From Loigolactobacillus bifermentans DSM 20003 (GTDB lineage: Bacteria > Bacillota > Bacilli > Lactobacillales > Lactobacillaceae): a DNA stretch of 44,371 nt. Positions 4,082 through 35,187 of this stretch are shown in pieces; the first letter of the stretch is position 1; each line of letters starts with the position of its first letter. The notes beneath the pieces were generated by a model that was not told where the DNA came from, did not search any database, and worked only from the letters and a program-made list of their open reading frames with translations. Both the position numbers and the translations under genes were made by a program. The stretch spans positions 1 through 44,371 of the forward strand of contig NZ_AZDA01000033.1 of assembly GCF_001434575.1 (NCBI RefSeq), written 5' to 3'.

Positions 4082-5836
4082 ATGCTTCGTTTATTGAAAC
4101 GACTAAATCGTAAAGAGTGGTTGATGATCGTTGTCAGTGTGTGGTTTATTGTGATACAAGTTAGCCTTGAATTGGCAATTCCCGATTACATGACAAAAAT
4201 TACCAATGCGCTGGAAACGTCAGGGTCGACGGCAATTGATATTTTGCGTCCTGGTAGTCGGATGCTGTTGTATTCCTTATTAAGTGTTGCTGCTGCAATT
4301 GTAGTGGGCTATTTTGCAGCTCGTGTGGCCGCTAGTTTTTCAGCACGGTTACGGCAGGTGGTATTTGACCAAGTATCGGCGTATTCAAGTGCCGATATAA
4401 ATCGCTTTTCTACCGCTAGTTTGTTGACCCGGTCGACAAATGATATTACGCAGGTTCAAACCCTGATTGCAATGGGCATGCAGGTCTTGATCAAAGCACC
4501 AATCACGGCAATTTGGGCGATTACCAAAATTGCCAATAAAAACTGGGAATGGACAGCAGCTACTGGCGTGGCCGTTGTTATTTTAATTGTGATGTTGACA
4601 GTGATTCTCACATTGGTACAGCCGCGCTTTAAGCAAGTTCAGCAATTAACCGATCGATTAAACCTAGTGACTGGGGAAAATATTAGTGGTATTCGAGTGG
4701 TTCATGCTTATAATGCTGAAGCTTATCAAAATAACAAGTTTGATCATGCTAATCAAGAATTGACGCAGACCAATTTATTTGCAAACCGTGTGTTAGCTAT
4801 GATGAACCCTGGTATGTCATTGATCAGTAATGACCTTACATTAGCTGTTTACGCGCTAGGAGCGACTTTAATTGCAACGGCAACTGGTGCGGCCAAACTT
4901 AAGTTATTCTCGAATATGATCGTCTTTTCCAGTTATGCCATGCAAGTGATCATGGCTTTTCTCCTGTTGAGCATTATTTTCGTCATTATGCCACGTGTTA
5001 CGGTTTCAGCGGCGCGATTAAATGAGGTATTAACCTTAAAATCGAGTATGTCTTATCCTACGAATAGGCAACCTCAGACAACCCAATCAGGCACGATTCA
5101 ATTTGAACATGTCAGCTTTAAATTTGCTGGCGCTGAGGAAAATGCAGTTAGTGATTTATCCTTTCAAGCCCAAACTGGTGATACTGTAGCTATTATCGGG
5201 GCTACTGGAAGTGGCAAGTCGACGGTGCTTAATTTATTGGCGCGGCGCTATGATGTTAGTGCTGGTCGTATCTTGATCGATGGTATTGATGTGCGGGATT
5301 ATCCAGCAGCACAATTAAATGACAAAATCGGTTATATACCACAAAAGGCAGTGCTTTTTTCAGGCACGATTCGCAGTAATATTGATTTTGGTATCGGGGC
5401 GCATAAACCTGAAAAGCTATCGGATGCGCAGATTCATTCAGCATTAGTAACGGCACAGGCAGCTGATTTTACAAATGACTTAGCAACACCAGTCGCTCAG
5501 CATGGAGATAATTTTTCCGGTGGTCAAAAACAGCGGCTTGCCATTGCTCGGGCAATCGCGCGACGGCCAGAGATTTTGCTATTTGATGATTCTTTTTCCG
5601 CATTAGACTACGCCACAGATGCCAAGTTACGACAGGCCTTAAAGCAACAGGCAGCACAAACTACTCAAGTAATTGTGGCGCAACGAATCAGTACCATTAT
5701 GGACGCAGATCAAATTATTGTGTTAGATCAGGGGCAAGTCGCTGGAATTGGGACCCATACAACGTTATTGGCTCAAAATCAGGTTTATCAAGAAATTGCC
5801 TATTCACAACTTAGTAAGGAGGAACTGGCCGAATGA
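4082..5836 (+). CDS. Heterodimeric ABC exporter, subunit with degenerate ATP site (LmrC/BmrC-type)
   Basis: The 584-residue half-transporter has six transmembrane helices (about residues 15-300) and a C-terminal ATPase domain. The Walker A is GATGSGKST, the signature FSGGQKQRLAIARA, and the Walker B ILLFDDSFSALD. The residue after the Walker B Asp is Asp rather than the catalytic Glu, and the H-loop His is Gln (IVAQRIST). This subunit therefore supplies the non-hydrolytic site, as in LmrCD, BmrCD and TM287/288. It overlaps the next gene by ATGA. A drug or peptide export role is inferred from the family. AGGAGG at 4069-4074 fixes the start. Confidence 0.92.
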   Translation: MLRLLKRLNRKEWLMIVVSVWFIVIQVSLELAIPDYMTKITNALETSGSTAIDILRPGSRMLLYSLLSVAAAIVVGYFAARVAASFSARLRQVVFDQVSAYSSADINRFSTASLLTRSTNDITQVQTLIAMGMQVLIKAPITAIWAITKIANKNWEWTAATGVAVVILIVMLTVILTLVQPRFKQVQQLTDRLNLVTGENISGIRVVHAYNAEAYQNNKFDHANQELTQTNLFANRVLAMMNPGMSLISNDLTLAVYALGATLIATATGAAKLKLFSNMIVFSSYAMQVIMAFLLLSIIFVIMPRVTVSAARLNEVLTLKSSMSYPTNRQPQTTQSGTIQFEHVSFKFAGAEENAVSDLSFQAQTGDTVAIIGATGSGKSTVLNLLARRYDVSAGRILIDGIDVRDYPAAQLNDKIGYIPQKAVLFSGTIRSNIDFGIGAHKPEKLSDAQIHSALVTAQAADFTNDLATPVAQHGDNFSGGQKQRLAIARAIARRPEILLFDDSFSALDYATDAKLRQALKQQAAQTTQVIVAQRISTIMDADQIIVLDQGQVAGIGTHTTLLAQNQVYQEIAYSQLSKEELAE

Positions 5837-7581
5837 CACAACCAAAATTAATACCAGGTATTCGACGTTATGGCAAACCATATCTGCTACCGTTATTCAC
5901 GGCCATGGGCTTGGCGGTTTTAGGTAACTTGGCGACTTTAATTGGGCCAGATCAATTAAGCCGGATCACCAACAAAATTTCGGCCGGCTTACGCGGGGGT
6001 ATGGATCTTAAAGGAATCTGGCATATTGTGAGTCTATTAGCAGTAATTTACGGCATAGGGGCATTCATGTCCTACGCCCAAGGCTATGTCATGGCAACGG
6101 TGGCGCAAAATTTTACACGTGATCTGCGAACTAAGATTTCCCGAAAAATCAATCGTTTGCCGTTAACTTATTTTGATACACATTCTGAAGGGGATACGTT
6201 GTCCCGTGTCACTAACGATTTGGATACTTTTGGTCAGGCTTTAAATCAAAGCTTAGGTACATTAGTATCATCAGTTGTTTTGATTGTTGGAGCTGTAATA
6301 ATGATGACTTGGAGTAATTGGTTATTAAGTTTAACGGCAGTAGTAGCATCACTGCTAGGGATGAGTGTGGTCGTTTTATTGCTGACGCACTCACAACGAT
6401 ATTTTGGTGACCAGCAAACTCAATTAGCCGCTGTTTCTGGTTATGTTGAAGAGGTTTATGCAGGGCATGAAGTGGTTCAAACTTATAATCAAACTCAAAA
6501 AGCGACACAGGATTTTCAGCAATTAAACCAGCGGCTTGAAACCAGTGTTTGGAAGGCTCAATTTTTATCTGGTATCATGCAGCCTTTTATGAATTTCATC
6601 GGTAACTTTGGGTATGTTGCTGTGAGCGTTGTTGGCGCATTGTTAGCATTGAAAGGAACGATTTCAATTGGTATGGTAGTTGCTTTTATGGTGTACGTTC
6701 GTATTTTTACCCAACCCTTAGGACAAATCACCCAAGCATTTTCTGGCTTACAGTCAGCTCAAGCTGCCTTACGACGGGTATTTGCATTTTTAGATACGCC
6801 AGATGATGATGATCGTTCAGCGGCAACCGTAATGTTACAACGGGCCACAGGTAAAATCGACTTCGAGAAGGTTGATTTTGGTTATACATTCGAAAAACAA
6901 ATCATTCATCAGTTTTCAGCACACATTAAACCTGGCCAAAAGGTGGCTATTGTTGGACCGACTGGTGCGGGAAAAACCACATTAATCAGCTTACTAATGG
7001 GGTATTATACGCCACAACATGGTCAAATTAAGATCGATGACCAGCCGATTGAACAGCTGTCAAAGGCTACAGTACGGAACCAGTTTGATATGGTATTGCA
7101 AGATACTTGGTTATTTGAAGCGACGATTATGGCGAATTTAAAGTATAATGATCCTAATATTAGTGATGCGCAAGTGTTTGAAGCAGCTAAAGCAGTTGGT
7201 GTGGATCATTTTATTCGCACATTACCCCAGGGTTACGCCACAGTTTTAAACGAAGCAGTATCATTATCAGTTGGCCAAAAACAATTGCTGACGATTGCAC
7301 GGGCATTAGTGCGTAATCGGCCCATGCTGATCTTAGACGAAGCAACGAGTTCAGTCGATACTCGTACGGAAGAACAATTACAGCAGGCGATGGATGTATT
7401 GACCAAAAACCGTACTAGTCTCGTGATTGCCCATCGCTTATCTACGATTAAAAATGCAGATACGATTTTAGTTTTGAATCATGGGACAGTCATCGAAGCG
7501 GGAACTCACGAAGAACTCATGAAACAAAAGGGGTTCTATGCTAATCTATATAATAGTCAATTCGAAAAATTAACCGCTTAA
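5833..7581 (+). CDS. Heterodimeric ABC exporter, subunit with canonical ATP site residues (LmrD/BmrD-type)
   Basis: The 582-residue partner of the preceding subunit has six N-terminal helices and an ATPase domain. The Walker A is GPTGAGKTT, the Walker B MLILDEATSSVD with catalytic Glu, and the H-loop IAHRLST with His. Its signature is LSVGQKQ rather than LSGGQ. Because signatures act in trans, that altered signature faces the other subunit's degenerate Walker site, which fits the asymmetric design. It is translated by start-stop overlap (ATGA, 5833-5836) for equal stoichiometry. The multidrug-type export assignment is by family; the substrate is unknown. Confidence 0.92.
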   Translation: MTQPKLIPGIRRYGKPYLLPLFTAMGLAVLGNLATLIGPDQLSRITNKISAGLRGGMDLKGIWHIVSLLAVIYGIGAFMSYAQGYVMATVAQNFTRDLRTKISRKINRLPLTYFDTHSEGDTLSRVTNDLDTFGQALNQSLGTLVSSVVLIVGAVIMMTWSNWLLSLTAVVASLLGMSVVVLLLTHSQRYFGDQQTQLAAVSGYVEEVYAGHEVVQTYNQTQKATQDFQQLNQRLETSVWKAQFLSGIMQPFMNFIGNFGYVAVSVVGALLALKGTISIGMVVAFMVYVRIFTQPLGQITQAFSGLQSAQAALRRVFAFLDTPDDDDRSAATVMLQRATGKIDFEKVDFGYTFEKQIIHQFSAHIKPGQKVAIVGPTGAGKTTLISLLMGYYTPQHGQIKIDDQPIEQLSKATVRNQFDMVLQDTWLFEATIMANLKYNDPNISDAQVFEAAKAVGVDHFIRTLPQGYATVLNEAVSLSVGQKQLLTIARALVRNRPMLILDEATSSVDTRTEEQLQQAMDVLTKNRTSLVIAHRLSTIKNADTILVLNHGTVIEAGTHEELMKQKGFYANLYNSQFEKLTA

Positions 7582-8189: not shown

Positions 8190-8795
8190 ATGGTTAAAGT
8201 CTTGATAATTGGTGCCACAGGCTCAGTAGGTCAAGTGACACGGCATTATTTTTTGCAATACACTACCGATCAGATCACCTTAATGGCCCGTCACACCCAG
8301 CGGTTAGGCACGATTGATGCGACGCGTGAAAAAGTAGTGGCCGGCAGTGTCTTAGACGCTACTGTTTTACAAACGGCTTTGCAAGGACAAGATGTGGTGT
8401 TTGCGGCGTTAAGCGGCAATTTGCCTAAAATGGCAACCGCCTTGATACAAGGGATGACCGCGGCCGGGGTACAGCGATTATTGTTTATCACGTCCATGGG
8501 GATTTACAATGAAATTCCGGCTCGTGTTGGGGCAAACGGCAATTTACAACACAACCCAATGTTACAAAACTATCGTGAGGCCGCTGATGTGATAGCAGCG
8601 TCGTCTTTAAATTACACCACCATTCGCCCAGGCTGGTTTGATAACGGCACCGATACCGATTACCAAATCACCCACCAAAACGAACCTTTTGGTGGGCATG
8701 ATGTTTCGCGACAAAGTATTGCAGACTTAGTGGTGCGTTTGGCGCATGATTCAGATTTTGGCGCTCGGGATAGTTTAGGCATTAATCGTAAATAA
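8190..8795 (+). CDS. NAD(P)-binding atypical SDR (NmrA/YwnB-like)
   Basis: The 201-residue protein begins with a Rossmann motif, IIGATGSVGQ (about residues 6-15). An SM-G-Y-like segment (ITSMGIY, about residues 98-104) and NYTTIRPGWF, typical of atypical SDRs of the NAD(P)H-binding/NmrA type, follow. It probably reduces, or senses through NAD(P)H, an unknown carbonyl or quinone substrate in the cytosol. It is driven by the MerR-type promoter at 8127-8157, so it is likely induced by a chemical or redox stress. The stop codon abuts the first unit of the tandem repeat array. Confidence 0.85.
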   Translation: MVKVLIIGATGSVGQVTRHYFLQYTTDQITLMARHTQRLGTIDATREKVVAGSVLDATVLQTALQGQDVVFAALSGNLPKMATALIQGMTAAGVQRLLFITSMGIYNEIPARVGANGNLQHNPMLQNYREAADVIAASSLNYTTIRPGWFDNGTDTDYQITHQNEPFGGHDVSRQSIADLVVRLAHDSDFGARDSLGINRK

Positions 8796-9199
8796 GGAAG
8801 CCCATGTTTCCTACGAGGGTGGTTGCGCCCGTAGGAATGGTCATCCTCCGGAAATAAGATTTTTGCAGAAGCAAAATAGACATTAGATTACTTGGGAGGA
8901 GCCATGTTTCCACCGTGACGGGCTGCGTCCGATGGAATGGACATCCTCCGGAAATAAGATTTTTGCGGAAGCAAAATAGACATTAGATTATTTAGGAGGA
9001 GCCATGTTTCCTACGAGGGAGATTGCGCCCGTAGGAATGGACATCCTCCGAAATAGGATTTTGCGTTAGCAAAATCTAACATTAGAGCATTTAGGAGGAG
9101 CCATGTTTCCACCGTGACGGGCTGCGTCCGATGGAATGGACATCCTCCGAAATACGATTTTGCGTTAGCAAAAATCTAACATTAGAGCACTTAGGAGGT
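8795..9199 (+). repeat. Tandem structured element array 1 (4 units) upstream of the alcohol dehydrogenase
   Basis: The four units begin at 8795, 8894, 8994 and 9093 (period 99-100 bp). The last AGGAGG (9193-9198) is the ribosome binding site of the next gene. Each unit has AGGAGG (AGGAAG in the first), ATG about 4 nt later, hairpin H1, then TCCTCC, hairpin H2 and an ACATTAGA...TTAGGAGG tail. H1 arms alternate: units 1 and 3 pair TTCCTACG with CGTAGGAA, while units 2 and 4 pair TTCCACCG with CGATGGAA plus GACG with CGTC. H2 is TTTTGC-AGAA-GCAAAA, TTTTGC-GGAA-GCAAAA, then GATTTTGC-GTTA-GCAAAATC. The H1 types run A-B-A-B while the H2 types run a-a-b-b. Confidence 0.9.
9143..9198 (+). promoter_or_regulatory. 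Anti-SD / SD pair controlling the alcohol dehydrogenase start
   Basis: CCTCC at 9144-9148 can pair with GGAGG at 9194-9198, enclosing hairpin H2 of the last unit. That GGAGG is part of the ribosome binding site of the gene starting at 9207 (8-nt spacing). The pairing is seen in sequence; regulation is inference. Confidence 0.55.
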
Positions 9200-9206
9200 A
9201 TTCAAA

Positions 9207-10244
9207 ATGAAAGCAGCAATTTTTATGGCACCTGGTAAAATGGTGATCAAAGAAGTCCCAAAGCCACAATTGGAACAACCTGGCGACGCGGTGATCAAAG
9301 TCTTACGGGCCTGTGTTTGTGGCTCCGATTTATGGTGGTATCGTGGCATCGCCAAGCGTGAAAGTGGGTCAAATGCCGGGCATGAAGCCATTGGTATTGT
9401 GGAATCCGTTGGTACTGAGGTCACCAATGTGGCCCCTGGAGATTTTGTGATCATGCCGTTTACGCACGGTTGTGGGCACTGTGCCGCTTGTTTGGCAGGC
9501 TTTGATGGGGATTGTATCAATGCACCGCAAGGGTCTAGCGGCTATCAAAGTGAGTACGTTCGGTTTAATCACGCAAATTGGGCATTGGTGAAAATTCCTG
9601 GCCAACCTAGTGACTACACGGATGCCCAATTAAATGATTTATTAGCCCTGTCCGATGTGATGGCCACGGGGTATCATGCGGCGGCTAGTGCGGAAGTGAA
9701 AAGTGGCGACACAGTCGTTGTGATAGGGGATGGCGCAGTTGGGTTATGTGGTGTGTTGTCAGCGAAGTTACGCGGGGCGCAACGGATCATTGCCATGAGC
9801 CGCCATGTCGATCGCCAGGCGTTGGCCACTGAATTTGGCGCCACAGATATTGTGGCCGAACGTGGGGATGCGGCTGTTCAAAAGGTGTTGGCGTTAACGG
9901 CTGGCAACGGTGCCGATGCCGTTTTAGAATGTGTCGGGACGGAACAGTCGGTGGCGACAGCTGTGCAAGTGGGCAGGCCGGGCGCCATTGTTGGTCGCGT
10001 TGGGGTCCCGCAAAAATCTGACATGAACACTAACCAACTTTTTTGGCGCAATATTGGCTTGCGAGGCGGTGTTGCTGCGGTGACCACGCACGACCGTCAC
10101 GTATTGTTAGATGCCGTTTTGCAAGGCAAAATTCATCCCGGCAAAGTCTTTACCCAACGGTTTGCCTTAGCTGATATTCAGGCAGCGTACAACGCTATGG
10201 ATCAGCGAGAAGCCATTAAATCTTTACTAGTTGTGGCACAATAA
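9207..10244 (+). CDS. Zinc-dependent alcohol dehydrogenase (MDR superfamily)
   Basis: The 345-residue medium-chain dehydrogenase/reductase oxidises or reduces an alcohol/aldehyde pair with NAD(P). Catalytic zinc ligands appear in ACVCGSDLWW (Cys near residue 38) and in GHEAIG (His59-Glu60). A structural zinc site is formed by GCGHCAACLAGFDGDC (four Cys, about residues 92-107). A nucleotide-binding VIGDGAVG lies near residue 173. The start is set by AGGAGG at 9193-9198, which is the end of the repeat array. An aldo/keto reductase follows with its own promoter, suggesting a carbonyl-detoxification neighbourhood. The natural substrate is unknown. Confidence 0.92.
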   Translation: MKAAIFMAPGKMVIKEVPKPQLEQPGDAVIKVLRACVCGSDLWWYRGIAKRESGSNAGHEAIGIVESVGTEVTNVAPGDFVIMPFTHGCGHCAACLAGFDGDCINAPQGSSGYQSEYVRFNHANWALVKIPGQPSDYTDAQLNDLLALSDVMATGYHAAASAEVKSGDTVVVIGDGAVGLCGVLSAKLRGAQRIIAMSRHVDRQALATEFGATDIVAERGDAAVQKVLALTAGNGADAVLECVGTEQSVATAVQVGRPGAIVGRVGVPQKSDMNTNQLFWRNIGLRGGVAAVTTHDRHVLLDAVLQGKIHPGKVFTQRFALADIQAAYNAMDQREAIKSLLVVAQ

Positions 10245-30158: not shown

Positions 30159-30890
30159 ATGGATTTAAAAGATAAAGTTGTTTTAATTACTGGGAGTTCC
30201 CGGGGAATCGGCGCGGCAATGGCGCAAGCTTTTGCCCAGGCCGGGGCCAAACTGGTTTTGAACAGTCGTCATGCGGCCACTGAACAAGTGACGACTTTTA
30301 CGGCACAAGGTGTGACTTGTACGGCAATTCAAGCTGATGTAGCAGATCCTGATCAGGTGAAGCAGATGATCAAAACCATTAAATCTGAATTTGGCCAGCT
30401 AGATGTGGTGATCAATAATGCAGGGGTTACCGAGGATAAACTATTGATTCGGATGCAACCAGCTGACTTTGAAAAAGTCCTGCAAACCAATTTAGTAGGT
30501 ACCTTTAACGTGACGTCAAAAGCGTTACCGCTATTACTGAAGCAACGGTCTGGCTGCATTATTAATATTGCCAGTGTAATCGGCTTAACCGGTAATATTG
30601 GTCAGGCGAATTATGCTGCTAGTAAAGCAGGGATTATTGGTTTTACCAAATCTGTGGCTCAAGAGGCAGCCTTACGCCAAGTGCGGTGTAACGCCATTGC
30701 ACCAGGGATGATCGACACTGATATGACCGCTGTGTTAGACGAAAAACGTCAAGCCGATATTTTAGAACGAATTCCGTTAAAGCGCTTTGGCCAACCAACA
30801 GAAGTCGCCCAAACAGCCCTTTTCTTAGCCCAAAATGACTACCTCACTGGCCAAACAATTGCCATTGACGGCGGCTTGACCATGTATTAA
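30159..30890 (+). CDS. fabG: 3-oxoacyl-ACP reductase
   Basis: The 243-residue classical SDR has the NADPH-binding TGSSRGIGAAMAQ, the structural NNAG, and the catalytic Ser in INIASVIG with YAASKAG (Tyr-x-x-x-Lys). It reduces 3-ketoacyl-ACP to 3-hydroxyacyl-ACP. The first repeat array inside the FAS operon begins within 30 nt of its stop, separating it from fabF by 360 nt. Confidence 0.96.
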   Translation: MDLKDKVVLITGSSRGIGAAMAQAFAQAGAKLVLNSRHAATEQVTTFTAQGVTCTAIQADVADPDQVKQMIKTIKSEFGQLDVVINNAGVTEDKLLIRMQPADFEKVLQTNLVGTFNVTSKALPLLLKQRSGCIINIASVIGLTGNIGQANYAASKAGIIGFTKSVAQEAALRQVRCNAIAPGMIDTDMTAVLDEKRQADILERIPLKRFGQPTEVAQTALFLAQNDYLTGQTIAIDGGLTMY

Positions 30891-30916: not shown

Positions 30917-31241
30917 AGCAAAATAGACATTAGCGCATTTAGGAGGGCTATGTTTCCTACGAGGGTGATTGCGCCCGTAGGAATAGTCATCCTCCGAAAT
31001 AAGATTTTGCGTTAGCAAAATAGACATTAGCGCATTTAGGAGGAGCCATGTGTCCTGCGGCGTGGGTTGACGCCACAAGACTGGACATCCTCCGAAGTAA
31101 GATTTTTGCGTTAGCAAAATAGACATTAGAGCATTTAGGAGGTGCCATGTTTCCATCGTGGCGGGTTTCGCCCGAGGGACTGGACATCCTCCGGAAATAA
31201 GACCTTTGCGATAGCAAAGATACACTAGAGCATTTAGGAGG
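30917..31241 (+). repeat. Tandem structured element array 2 (partial + 3 units) between fabG and fabF
   Basis: A 3' fragment (30917-30940) is followed by units at 30941, 31038 and 31137. A final AGGAGG (31236-31241) is the fabF ribosome binding site. H1 stems: unit 1 TTCCTACG/CGTAGGAA; unit 2 GTCCTGC/ACAAGAC (two C-A mismatches) continuing into GGCGT/ACGCC; unit 3 TCCATCG/CGAGGGA (one mismatch) continuing into GGCG/CGCC. H2: GATTTTGC-GTTA-GCAAAAT in units 1 and 2, CTTTGC-GATA-GCAAAG in unit 3. The whole intergenic region is made of this element, and I see no promoter or terminator in it. Confidence 0.9.
31188..31241 (+). promoter_or_regulatory. Anti-SD / SD pair controlling the fabF start
   Basis: CCTCC (31188-31192) can pair with GGAGG (31237-31241), the fabF ribosome binding site, enclosing the CTTTGC-GATA-GCAAAG hairpin. 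fabF starts 9 nt later. Confidence 0.5.
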
Positions 31242-31250
31242 TTTTTTCAA

Positions 31251-32489
31251 ATGACAGAACGTGTTGTTGTCACGGGGATGGGGACAGTTTCTCCATTAGG
31301 CAATGATGTTGCCAGTACCATGACTCAAATTCAAGCAGGTGAAGTCGGCTTTGCACCGATCACAAAATTCGATGCAACTGAAACAGGCATTACCTTAGCT
31401 GGCGAAGTGAAGGATTTTGATGCAACTAAACGGCTCGAAAAACGCACTAGCAAGCGAATGGATCTTTTTTCACAATACGCATTGTATAGTGCCATTGAAG
31501 CAGCTGAACAAGCCGGTTTAACCGCTAAAACAGTTGCTCCTGAGCGCTTAGGCGTGATTTTAGGCTCTGGGATCGGTGGGTTAACGACCATTGAGGCGCA
31601 AGTTACAAAAATGAATGCCAAAGGGCCACAGCGGGTGTCGCCATTGTTTGTACCACAATCCATTGTGAATATGGCGGCCGGTAATGTGGCCTTATACTTT
31701 AAAGCCAAAAATACGTGTCAGGCGGTGGTAACAGCCTGCGCCTCCGGAACCAACGCCATTGGCAATGCCTTTCGTGAAATTCGTGCTGGTCGGGCTGACA
31801 TGATGATCACAGGGGGCTGTGAAGCATCTGTGAACCAAATCGGGATTGCCGGTTTTGCGGCGTTATCCGCCTTGTCGGCGGCCACTGATCCAGCGGTGGC
31901 ATCCATTCCGTTTGATGAAAAACGGCAAGGCTTCGTCATGGGAGAAGGCGCCGGAACGTTGATTTTAGAAAGTCTCAGTCACGCCCAAGCACGTGGCGCA
32001 AAAATTTATGGTGAGATTACTGGGTACGGTAGTACTTGTGATGCGTTCCATATGACTGCTCCTGATCCAGATGGGACTCAGGCCGCGCGGGCCATGGCAT
32101 TAGCCGTTGAGGAAGCCGGCTGGCAACCAGACGAGGTTGACTACATTAATGCCCATGGTACCAGTACGGCTGCCAATGACAGTGCTGAAGCGCAAGCAAT
32201 CGTGGCCGTTTTTGGTAATCGTCCCGATCTACTTGTTAGCAGTACCAAAAGTATGACGGGCCATTTATTAGGTGCCGCAGGGGCTTTGGAAGCTGTGATC
32301 ACGTTAGCCGCACTAACGGATCATCAATTACCAGTCAATGTAGGCGTGGCACAGCAAGATCCAGCCTGCCCGGTGCACTTGGTGAATCAAGATAACACGG
32401 CCTCAACGGCAACGAAGGCCATTAGCAATTCATTTGGCTTTGGTGGTCACAATGCTGTTTTAGCCTTACAAACATGGGGTGAAGCATAA
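31251..32489 (+). CDS. fabF: Beta-ketoacyl-ACP synthase II
   Basis: The 412-residue condensing enzyme elongates acyl-ACP with malonyl-ACP. The catalytic Cys is in VVTACASGTNAIG (about residue 163) and the two His in NAHGTSTAANDS and KSMTGHLLGAAG. GFGGHNAVL is the C-terminal gatekeeper region. Its ribosome binding site is the terminal AGGAGG of the repeat array. accB begins 2 nt after the stop. Confidence 0.97.
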   Translation: MTERVVVTGMGTVSPLGNDVASTMTQIQAGEVGFAPITKFDATETGITLAGEVKDFDATKRLEKRTSKRMDLFSQYALYSAIEAAEQAGLTAKTVAPERLGVILGSGIGGLTTIEAQVTKMNAKGPQRVSPLFVPQSIVNMAAGNVALYFKAKNTCQAVVTACASGTNAIGNAFREIRAGRADMMITGGCEASVNQIGIAGFAALSALSAATDPAVASIPFDEKRQGFVMGEGAGTLILESLSHAQARGAKIYGEITGYGSTCDAFHMTAPDPDGTQAARAMALAVEEAGWQPDEVDYINAHGTSTAANDSAEAQAIVAVFGNRPDLLVSSTKSMTGHLLGAAGALEAVITLAALTDHQLPVNVGVAQQDPACPVHLVNQDNTASTATKAISNSFGFGGHNAVLALQTWGEA

Positions 32490-32963: not shown

Positions 32964-33386
32964 ATGTTAGATATTCAAGAGATTCAAAAAATTTTACCCC
33001 ATCGTTATCCCTTTTTATTAATTGATAAGGTTCTAACGGTGACGCCTGGTGAAAGTGTTGTGGCTCAAAAAAATGTCACGATCAATGAACCTTTTTTCCA
33101 AGGCCATTTTCCAGGTAATCCTGTCATGCCAGGGGTTTTACAATTAGAGGCCATGGCCCAAGCCGGCGCCGTTGCCATTTTAACGTTGCCAGAATTTAAA
33201 GGCAAAGTCGCCTATTTTGGTGGCATTAAAAAAGCCAAATTCCGGCAAATTGTGCGCCCAGGGGACGTGTTAAAAATTGAGGTTGAATTGACGAAACTAC
33301 GTGATCAAATTGGTAGCGGTCAAGGTACGATCAAGGTGGATGACAAGGTTGTTTGTTCAGCTGAGTTTGTGTTTGCCATTCATTAA
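32964..33386 (+). CDS. fabZ: 3-hydroxyacyl-ACP dehydratase FabZ (canonical copy)
   Basis: The 140-residue hotdog-fold dehydratase has intact active-site motifs: [26 protein letters not shown] (catalytic His) and [10 protein letters not shown] (catalytic Glu). It removes water from 3-hydroxyacyl-ACP. This copy, unlike the one at 26023, should be fully active. ATG 32964, 1 nt after the accB stop, gives the standard N-terminus [17 protein letters not shown]. The second repeat array within the operon starts 19 nt after its stop. Confidence 0.96.
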
Positions 33387-33405
33387 ATAGTAGAAAAAGA
33401 TATTG

Positions 33406-33804
33406 AGGAGGCGCCATGCGTCCTGCGGGGTGAACTATCCCCACAAGACTGGACAGCATCCGAGAATCAGATTTTTACGATAGTAAAATAGACATTAAAG
33501 AATTGAGGAGGCGCCATGTTTCTGGCGTGATGGTTTTCGTCCGCCAGACTGGACAACCAGCGAAAATAAGACCTTTGCGATAGCAAAGATACACAAGCGT
33601 ATTTAGCTGGTGCCATGTGTCCTGCGGGGTGAACTGACCCCACAAGACTGGACAGCATCCGAGAATTAGATTTTGCGACAGCAAAATAGACATTAAAGCT
33701 GAGGAGGCGCCATGCGTCCTGCGGGGTGAACTGACCCCACAAGACTGGACAGCATCCGAAAATTAGATTTTGCGACAGCAAAATAAACATTAAAGCTGAG
33801 GAGG
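33406..33804 (+). repeat. Tandem structured element array 3 (4 units) between fabZ and accC
   Basis: Units begin at 33406, 33506, 33605 and 33702, and the final AGGAGG (33799-33804) is the accC ribosome binding site. H1: units 1, 3 and 4 pair GTCCTGC/ACAAGAC with inner GGGG/CCCC (GGGGT/ACCCC in units 3 and 4). Unit 2 has a perfect TCTGGCG/CGCCAGA plus GATG/CGTC. H2: TTTTAC-GATA-GTAAAA (unit 1), CTTTGC-GATA-GCAAAG (unit 2) and TTTTGC-GACA-GCAAAA (units 3 and 4). Between units 2 and 3 the usual CCTCC...GGAGG is replaced by ACCAGC (33556-33561) and GCTGGT (33606-33611), a matched change on both sides. Confidence 0.9.
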
Positions 33805-33813: not shown

Positions 33814-35187
33814 TTGTTTCAAAAAGTACTAGTCGCCAATCGCGGTGAAATCGCGGTCCGCGTTTTACGAACCTTAAAAGAAATGGGAATTGCCAGTGTG
33901 GCGATTTATTCAGAAGCGGATCAAGAGAGCTTACACGTACAGCTAGCCGATGAGGCGATTTGCGTGGGCAGTGGGCCGGCGCAAGATTCTTATTTAAATC
34001 GCGAAAATATTTTAAGTGCAGCCATTTTAACTGGGTCAGAAGCCATTTACCCAGGGTTTGGTTTTTTGGCAGAAGACGCACAGTTTGCCGAAATGTGTGC
34101 TGCGTGTCAAATCGTCTTTATTGGTCCAAGCGCCGAAAATATTGCCTTAATGGGTGATAAAGCACGGGCGCGGCAGTTTATGCAGCAGGCCAAGGTACCG
34201 GTGATTCCAGGCAGTGATGGCTTTTTAGAAAGTTTGGCGCAAGCCGAAAAAGTCGCCGCAACCATTGGCTATCCCATTTTATTAAAGGCCGCTGCTGGCG
34301 GCGGTGGCCGGGGCATTCGGCGGTTAGAAAATGCTGACGATTTGCGCACCCATTTTGCAGCGACCCAACAAGAAGCGCAAACCGCGTTTGGGGATGGCCG
34401 CATGTATTTGGAAAAAATTATTGCGCCCGCTAAGCACATTGAATTACAGGTGATCCGCGACCAACAAGGTCATACCGTGGTCTTTCCTGAGCGGGATTGT
34501 TCTGCGCAACGACACCATCAAAAGTTGCTGGAGGAAAGTCCTTGTGTGCTGATTTCAGCGGACCAGCGGGCCCATTTAATGGCATTGGTCAAACAAGCTG
34601 CAGAGGCGTTGCATTATGTAAACACGGGGACCATTGAGTTTCTGATGGATCAAAAGCAACAGTTTTATTTCATGGAAATGAATACCCGGATTCAGGTGGA
34701 ACATCCGATTACGGAAATGGTGGCGCAAGTCGACTTGATCAAGGCGCAATTAACTGTGGCCATGGGGCAGCCTTTGCCTTGGGAACAGGCTGCGATTCAG
34801 ATTCACGGCCATGCCATTGAATGCCGCATTAACGCAGAAGACCCAACGCAGGACTTTTTGCCAGTGGCCGGTAAAATTGACTATTTGTACTGGCCAGTAG
34901 GTGGTGTTGGTGTTCGAATCGACAGCGGTATTTATGCCGGTAGTGTGGTACCACCATTTTATGATGCCATGTTAGCCAAGTTGATCACCTTTGCTCCAGA
35001 TCGGAATGCAACCATTGCGAAAATGCAGCGGTTGTTACAAGAAACCATTATTCGTGGGGTACCGACTAACTGCGAATTTGAAGCAGCCTTGCTGGAAGAT
35101 CCCACCTTTTTGAAAGGGGAACTCACCACTATGTCTGTGAATCAAACGGTTTTGCCGGATTGGTTAGCTACAAAGGAGGCGGATTAA
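33814..35187 (+). CDS. accC: Biotin carboxylase subunit of acetyl-CoA carboxylase
   Basis: The 457-residue ATP-grasp enzyme carboxylates biotin on AccB. Landmarks are VLVANRGEIAVRVLRTL at the N-terminus, the glycine-rich loop KAAAGGGGRGIR, ERDCSAQRHHQKLLEESP, FMEMNTRIQVEHPITEM (metal and bicarbonate site) and ECRINAEDP. The start codon is TTG, with the first residues FQKVLVANRGEIA at the usual family N-terminus. Combined with a possible sequestered ribosome binding site, this suggests limited or regulated initiation. Confidence 0.96.
   Translation: MFQKVLVANRGEIAVRVLRTLKEMGIASVAIYSEADQESLHVQLADEAICVGSGPAQDSYLNRENILSAAILTGSEAIYPGFGFLAEDAQFAEMCAACQIVFIGPSAENIALMGDKARARQFMQQAKVPVIPGSDGFLESLAQAEKVAATIGYPILLKAAAGGGGRGIRRLENADDLRTHFAATQQEAQTAFGDGRMYLEKIIAPAKHIELQVIRDQQGHTVVFPERDCSAQRHHQKLLEESPCVLISADQRAHLMALVKQAAEALHYVNTGTIEFLMDQKQQFYFMEMNTRIQVEHPITEMVAQVDLIKAQLTVAMGQPLPWEQAAIQIHGHAIECRINAEDPTQDFLPVAGKIDYLYWPVGGVGVRIDSGIYAGSVVPPFYDAMLAKLITFAPDRNATIAKMQRLLQETIIRGVPTNCEFEAALLEDPTFLKGELTTMSVNQTVLPDWLATKEAD

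Follow-up and report, generated by a model that had tools for sequence, protein, structure and literature searches.

The tandem units described here, from Loigolactobacillus bifermentans DSM 20003, probably form a family of non-autonomous mobile hairpins, about 99 bp in size, that grow in tandem, are recognized as single-stranded DNA and carry their own Shine-Dalgarno (SD) sequence. Their conserved shape is more likely to point to a mobile element than to a new RNA switch. The evidence comes from the arrangement of the units in the genome, from a third helix that joins an internal guide to the 3′ boundary of the unit, from the position of the arrays at ribosome-binding sites, and from pairs of empty and filled sites.

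Units, arrays and copy number

The window, meaning the whole analyzed stretch of 44,371 nt of contig NZ_AZDA01000033.1, contains 11 units of 97 to 100 bp in three arrays on the + strand. A search with a 43-base core pattern, allowing at most two mismatches, gave exactly 11 matches in the window, with 0 expected from 100 shuffles, which bears out the eleven full units in three arrays reported in the initial annotation. Genes in the window were named by Pfam analysis of eight proteins, and the fab and acc names were given from domains and gene order. The features of the window are as follows:

8791..9198, + strand: array 1, four units at 8791-9188, flanked by genes for a NAD(P)-binding protein (8190-8795) and for a zinc alcohol dehydrogenase (9207-10244)
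9001..9043, + strand: core hairpin H1 of unit 3 of array 1 (GCCATG ... TGGACA)
9045..9049, + strand: guide (anti-SD) CCTCC of unit 3 of array 1, with GGAGG at 9094-9098 downstream (helix P3) or the upstream boundary at 8995-8999 (helix P1) as partner
9059..9074, + strand: hairpin H2 of unit 3 of array 1 (TTTTGC GTTA GCAAAA)
9193..9198, + strand: last boundary of array 1, AGGAGG, in SD position, with the ATG at 9207 8 nt downstream
30917..30936, + strand: 5′-truncated remnant, consisting of an H2 tail, that borders array 2 on the left
30937..31241, + strand: array 2, three units at 30937-31231, between fabG (30159-30890) and fabF (31251-32489)
31236..31241, + strand: boundary AGGAGG that closes array 2, placed as the SD of the fabF ATG at 31251
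33403..33804, + strand: array 3, four units at 33403-33795, between fabZ (end at 33386) and accC (TTG at 33814)
33605..33610, + strand: internal non-SD boundary of array 3, AGCTGG, the complement of the guide ACCAGC in the preceding unit (33503-33601)
33799..33804, + strand: boundary AGGAGG that closes array 3, placed as the SD of accC

Array 1 also has a higher-order period of 199 bp (window positions 8802-9198); H1 is most alike between units 1 and 3 and between units 2 and 4, unlike H2, which groups unit 1 with unit 2 and unit 3 with unit 4.

The genome of the strain (3.13 Mb in 147 contigs) was scanned with a covariance model, R1, and 150 of 1338 candidates were scored. All 150 matched R1 at an E value of ≤0.1, and since 141 of them did so at an E value of <1e-5, about 140 or more copies are present in the genome. 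The three arrays first described are real, but the family is not confined to them. A set of 60 sources, comprising the window and 59 stretches around copies (515,669 bases), yielded 147 matches at an E value of ≤0.01, including a doubtful one in reverse, in arrays of 1 to 5 units. Exact matches to the core numbered 73 versus 0 for the reversed pattern, and this result, together with the shuffles and the covariation of the units, ruled out a chance origin.

Among 301 Lactobacillaceae genomes, 16 matched, including that of the strain itself, so that diverged kin occur in 15 of the 300 others; as 13 candidates per genome were scored under strict filters, the 16 of 301 is a lower bound and the absences are weak. 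The matching genomes comprise eight of the strain’s own genus, six of a second genus (g5) and one from each of two further genera. By FabF, the nearest neighbors of the strain are L. jiayinensis and L. zhaoyuanensis, at 77% identity, which places it in Loigolactobacillus. A 75-bit match was seen in genus g3 (L194:2604-2702, genome G174), the other listed g3 member (G002) having none, which could reflect transfer or misassembly. Array 3 had no match among plasmids, array 1 had none among phages, and the core pattern had none among viral contigs.

The initial annotation knew no named family with this layout, and this agrees with the Rfam searches. At the gathering threshold, five hits were obtained, all to other families and 0 on a unit, and array 1 searched at E values up to 5 gave only sub-threshold matches. 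A known Rfam family was ruled out on the ground that no unit scored above the gathering threshold. The Transposase-1 RNA (RF03014) was found above threshold at L059:4407-4461, without overlap with a unit.

Hairpins, guide and boundary

The alignment of the 11 units allows 28 base pairs, which form a long hairpin (H1) and a short hairpin (H2; TTTTGC GNNA GCAAAA). At the base of H1, GGAGG.GCCA is paired with TGG..ATCCTCC. The paired changes first noticed in the H1 arms were correctly read, but the arms had been drawn too short, since H1 can continue in this pairing below them. In the 11 units, three of five covariation measures exceeded all 500 shuffles, with 22 double-change cells versus 9.3 after shuffling; the two other measures did not, namely, double-change pairs (9 versus 6.4, a value reached by 37 of the 500 shuffles) and further pair types (16 versus 16.6). 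With the 147 genome copies (144 distinct rows), all five measures exceeded 500 of 500 shuffles. Double changes were seen in 24 of the 28 pairs, in 368 cells versus 147 after shuffling, and 86.9% of the cells were paired, versus 78.3% when shuffled and at most 48.5% when slid; these figures lean towards the structure because the alignment of the 147 copies was fitted to it, and the shuffles do not keep relatedness. The paired changes of H1 and H2 are thus real and are retained when more copies are aligned. Nevertheless, the initial conclusion that paired changes imply selection on RNA does not follow, since folded single-stranded DNA would yield equal covariation.

The loops and mismatches of the hairpins were compared under both readings. 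A perfect H2 stem of at least 5 was read in 135 of the 144 distinct rows. Four-base H2 loops are mostly GNNA, as had been proposed (90 of 107), with T as the third base in 58, A in 18, C in 12 and G in 2, so that pyrimidines account for 70 of the 90 third bases and purines for 20. The three-base loops are GNA in 21 of 26. GNRA loops of RNA need a purine at the third position, and GNA triloops are stable in DNA. The H2 loops fit stable DNA loop motifs better than they fit the GNRA loops of RNA. Such a motif, d(cGNNAg), heads the four stable DNA tetraloop motifs named in the title of Nakano 2002, as cited in the reference list of PMC5090098. The H2 loops of the relatives, taken by pattern from 26 hairpins (24 with the other pattern), comprised 9 GNA, 6 GNNA, 1 GNAB, 1 CNNG and 9 others.

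Mismatches and folding energies were less telling. G-U and A-C raw cells stood at 71 to 135 over all helices, the A-C excess lying mainly in H1, and nearest-neighbor departures at 30 to 20 (distinct, 15 to 13) in 129 rows, so that G-U is not clearly preferred over A-C. Folding z-scores of 60 copies were −3.54 with DNA parameters versus −2.52 with RNA parameters, but these do not discriminate, because some true RNA controls show the same tilt: seven tRNAs, an FMN riboswitch and a T-box tilted to DNA, whereas tmRNA tilted to RNA and the Transposase-1 RNA was near zero.

The two-hairpin layout first proposed holds for H1 and H2 but missed a helix that joins CCTCC to the downstream boundary AGGAGG of the same unit and encloses H2. 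We took as the guide the motif that follows the core, which could be read by the core pattern in 123 of the 147 copies (24 were left out), and looked for complementary runs within 20 nt downstream and 10 nt upstream, a difference for which the shuffles allow. A complementary run of at least 5 between the guide and the downstream boundary of the same unit was present in 94 of the 123 copies, versus a mean of 52 and a maximum of 63 with shuffled guides (200 shuffles). With the upstream boundary, such a run was present in 53 of 123 (shuffled mean, 38; maximum, 46). The longer run was downstream in 53 copies and upstream in 8, and the two were equal in 62.

The guides were then typed with an ordered motif list that we composed. 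CCTCC guides have GGAGG downstream in 66 of 69 copies and upstream in 40 of 69; CCAGC guides have GCTGG downstream in 15 of 16 and upstream in 3 of 16; and CCTTC guides have GAAGG downstream in 6 of 8 and upstream in 4 of 8. Single fits were found for CCGGC with GCCGG (one of the four so classed) and for GCACC with GGTGC (1 of 1). As seen in array 3, the unit at 33503 has the guide CCAGC followed by the boundary AGCTGG, while the other three units have GCATCC ahead of GGAGG, with one mismatch. The pairing with the boundary is thus kept in copies that end in AGCTGG, which is not an SD. Some observations count against the reading as a mobile element: the guides ACGAC (0 of 4) and GCATCC (0 of 3, exact) do not fit their boundary, those classed as CCGGC fit in only 1 of 4, and in several relatives the guide-boundary pairing looks weak or absent by eye.

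When single units were folded, P3 around H2 was predicted without the upstream boundary (two units) and a longer H1, containing P1, was predicted with it (one unit), DNA and RNA parameters giving the same predictions. P1 and P3 share the guide and are mutually exclusive.

Ribosome-binding sites and probable insertion sites

The 147 matches were counted as 83 arrays, weak, truncated and doubtful reverse ones included, and genes were called with a simple longest-frame caller, by which five arrays were flagged as lying inside a frame. In 59 of the 83 arrays, a start codon of an open frame of at least 50 codons lies 3 to 15 nt past the last SD-like motif, versus 1 of 83 when the opposite end is read on the opposite strand and a mean of 2.5 (maximum, 5) at random places of the same loci. 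These counts support the initial expectation that the units lie upstream of genes, mainly in one orientation. Relative to the array, the neighboring genes are oriented (+,+) in 56 cases, (−,+) in 13, (+,−) in 7 and (−,−) in 3, with one side unknown in 4. Composites and copies ending in AGCTGG are among the arrays without a gene at their end. The family behaves as a dispersed repeat, scattered over the genome and with empty sites.

Ten proteins encoded downstream of arrays on the + strand of their locus belong to unrelated Pfam families: gyrase B, gyrase A, a binding protein, RadC, a hydrolase, an amino acid permease, a UvrD-type helicase, an MFS transporter, a YlmH-type protein and a DHH-DHHA2 protein. 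The genes gyrB and gyrA, so named by Pfam, each have a two-unit array in SD position (L039:3509-3704 and 5710-5906).

The left side of the arrays is also SD-like. The left flank could be read in 62 arrays, 5 of them composites, and the flank of the first unit is SD-like in 45 of the 57 non-composite arrays, compared with 5.5% of random 10-mers. Ten first units have the guide CCAGC; since six of these have an SD-like left flank and none has GCTGG at the left, this guide does not choose the target. In five arrays (L065:3190-3290, L063:3729-3777, L049:3462-3516, L042:3580-3695 and L084:3484-3529), the 5′-most unit is truncated from its 5′ side and keeps the SD end intact, as if a constraint acted on the 3′ end only.

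A cis-acting RNA switch would account for part of these observations. In such a switch, the guide would turn translation of the following gene off by pairing with the downstream SD (P3) and on by pairing with the upstream copy of the SD (P1), and the arrays would tune it in response to a signal, which might be ribosome load, temperature or a small molecule. The sense orientation and the SD position of the arrays agree with it, as do the mutually exclusive helices, both of which are predicted in RNA. The predicted accessibility of the SD, computed for 50 of the 59 arrays in SD position, is 0.33 with the last unit alone and 0.55 without the element; with the upstream boundary included it is 0.49, however, leaving a small mean effect. 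A riboswitch is made less likely by the unrelated downstream genes, both in the ten sampled proteins and in the window, and by the persistence of P3 in AGCTGG copies, whose boundary is not an SD. The orthologous fabF and accC sites of relatives, which are mostly without arrays, also argue against a switch, the H2 loops, mostly not GNRA, and the lack of a clear G-U excess may weigh on the same side, and overall we regard it as rather unlikely.

A leader-peptide attenuator, in which the SD-NGCC-ATG of each unit would start a short encoded peptide, is very improbable. The sequence AGGAGGNGCCATG is indeed present in many units, but the frame opened by the unit ATG ends at 4 codons in 36, at 17 in 31 and at 5 in 13 of the 123 readable units, with many other lengths besides, and it is this scatter that led us to disfavor the leader peptide. 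Moreover, the ATG is missing in 7 of the 123 units, and L. jiayinensis and some other kin lack it.

The comparison of empty and filled sites indicates how the units may have arrived. A second, palindromic repeat occurs in 13 copies, of which five hold exactly one unit and eight none; it measures 201 bp when empty (L254) and 302 bp when filled (L058). This repeat of about 200 bp forms a long hairpin whose arms vary between copies yet stay complementary, with a terminator-like stem following it, and was seen at loci L254 to L259, L087, L046, L080, L082, L057 and L058. The empty copies read CAGATAAATT(C/T) in five cases and CAGATAGATTC, CAGATGAATTC and CAGATGGATTC in one each. In the filled copies, CAGAT (TAGAT in one) is followed by GCCATG to AGGAGGT and next by AATTC, AAATC or AGTTC. 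The ends of the unit at these junctions are sharp and the target duplication is 0, in a comparison that concerns one kind of site, could reflect loss instead of gain, and in which the five filled copies may stem from few events. The empty sites indicate a discrete unit that duplicates no target and in most cases lies immediately 3′ of an SD.

Sites orthologous to arrays 2 and 3 were compared in relatives. Between fabG and fabF, a gap of 22 to 30 nt between alignments is empty in G123, G147 and G097, the sequence of G147 being that of L. zhaoyuanensis, whereas L. jiayinensis, whose sequence is identical in G170, has a four-unit array of a diverged subfamily. No FabF match was obtained in three of the seven related genomes at the limit used. 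The gap between fabZ and accC is empty in those three relatives whose locus contains both genes (17, 60 and 39 nt), and the listed Liquorilactobacillus loci, seven and eight for the two sites, have no array. The SD region of accC in G123, ATTGAGTAGG, resembles the left flank of array 3, ATTGAGGAGG, as if array 3 had come to adjoin the 3′ side of an old SD. In other genomes, related units were seen inside larger repeated modules (L214 of G176, L229 of G033 and L178-L185 of G103); G176 and G033, which belong to different genera, share CCGCTT as the left flank and TAGTAGCTAC as the right one.

Known systems and the proposed mechanism

Small dispersed hairpin repeats are already known, and BOX is the nearest in layout. 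BOX elements of Streptococcus pneumoniae, a low-GC Firmicute, have a modular layout (PMC3049150), and by this description they share with the units the small size, the dispersal and a central module that is repeated in tandem a varying number of times, with other modules on either side. Modularity of the same type is seen here in the arrays of 1 to 5 units and in composites that contain one unit or none. The passages of PMC3049150 consulted describe for BOX neither guide-boundary covariation nor a 3′ end that carries an SD.

The units could accordingly be viewed as a BOX-like miniature inverted-repeat element (MITE) moved by a cut-and-paste (DDE) transposase, whose transcript would be selected only through mRNA processing or stability, for example as RNase sites between operon genes. 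The modular build is consistent with this, with units found inside larger palindromic composites in the strain’s own genome and in relatives, much as boxB sits within BOX elements (PMC3049150), and so is the long hairpin formed by H1 and P1. However, the composite site shows no target duplication, and the unit ends seen there, GCCATG and AGGAGGT, do not make up an inverted repeat, which leaves this alternative distinctly improbable, more so than the RNA switch.

The IS200/IS605 family, whose members insert without target duplication, and the MITEs derived from it offer another comparison. As in IS608, the units have subterminal hairpins and a guide that pairs with the cleavage site at the right end, here presumably the boundary, and would insert 3′ of a short target; the absence of target duplication at the palindromic-repeat site is a further likeness. 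The rules of guide pairing and target choice in IS608 are given in PMC5934647. The units differ in having no transposase gene and no clear Y1 partner, in a guide lying several bases away from H2, in the lack of a left guide between the left flank and H1, and in a left flank that is SD-like instead of following the guide. In the strain’s own genome, Y1_Tnp matches were broken pieces at two places, a finding against the mobile-element reading, and the family model gave no hit below an E value of 1.7 in either of these Y1 loci. Among the 15 array-bearing relatives, 13 gave no Y1_Tnp match and 2 did, one of them partial. Because the left flank ignores the guide and Y1 is broken or, in 13 of the 15 relatives, absent, the units are partly IS608-like and not shown to be a member of that family.

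REP and BIME sequences are clustered hairpin repeats with a short conserved motif at the foot, and their RAYT transposases are expected in the Y1_Tnp family. The units differ from them in lying at SDs, in sense orientation, and in the lack of Y1_Tnp from most array-bearing relatives. With SD-sequestering riboswitches and T-boxes, the units share an anti-SD that pairs with the SD of the next gene; they differ in having no Rfam match, in the unrelated target genes of the sample, in being both tandem and dispersed, and in keeping the pairing in non-SD copies. A survey of open-access literature, which is far from all papers, found no description of the family; in the passages of PMC2267715 consulted, the only Lactobacillus entry is Lac-1 of L. 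johnsonii, which is 231 bp long and genic.

The mobile hairpin that we favor would work as follows. The element proper would extend from GCCATG to TTTAGGAGG(T) and comprise H1, the guide, H2 and the 3′ boundary. We infer that it moves by insertion and that its structure is recognized as folded single-stranded DNA by an enzyme of the host or of an insertion sequence. The guide between H1 and H2 would pair across H2 with the element’s own 3′ boundary (P3), and by analogy with IS608 the enzyme would locate the 3′ end through this pairing, the boundary presumably being the cleavage site. Insertion would take place between an SD and its start codon; since the 3′ end of the element is AGGAGG, the gene would receive a new SD and the insertion would be tolerated. 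Further units could then insert at either boundary and give rise to an array, and units ending in AGCTGG, a non-SD, would persist only ahead of another unit or where no gene follows. P1 and P3 may also compete for the guide and in this way affect translation, an RNA effect that would be secondary and a by-product.

Tentatively, and with more doubt than for the mobile hairpin itself, the units might represent a new class, namely, a single-strand-DNA repeat that prefers insertion at an SD, rebuilds the SD by its guide-paired 3′ end, now serves as the ribosome-binding site of about 60 genes, and is moved by something other than a known Y1 transposase. Covariation among the copies of a dispersed repeat, as the hairpins caution, need not signal an RNA. 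Small palindromic repeats are common, but here the 3′ end of one is placed as the ribosome-binding site of dozens of genes, together with a covarying internal anti-SD. This would show how selfish DNA can separate a gene from its start signal and yet leave the gene alive, and such insertions could rewire translation genome-wide.
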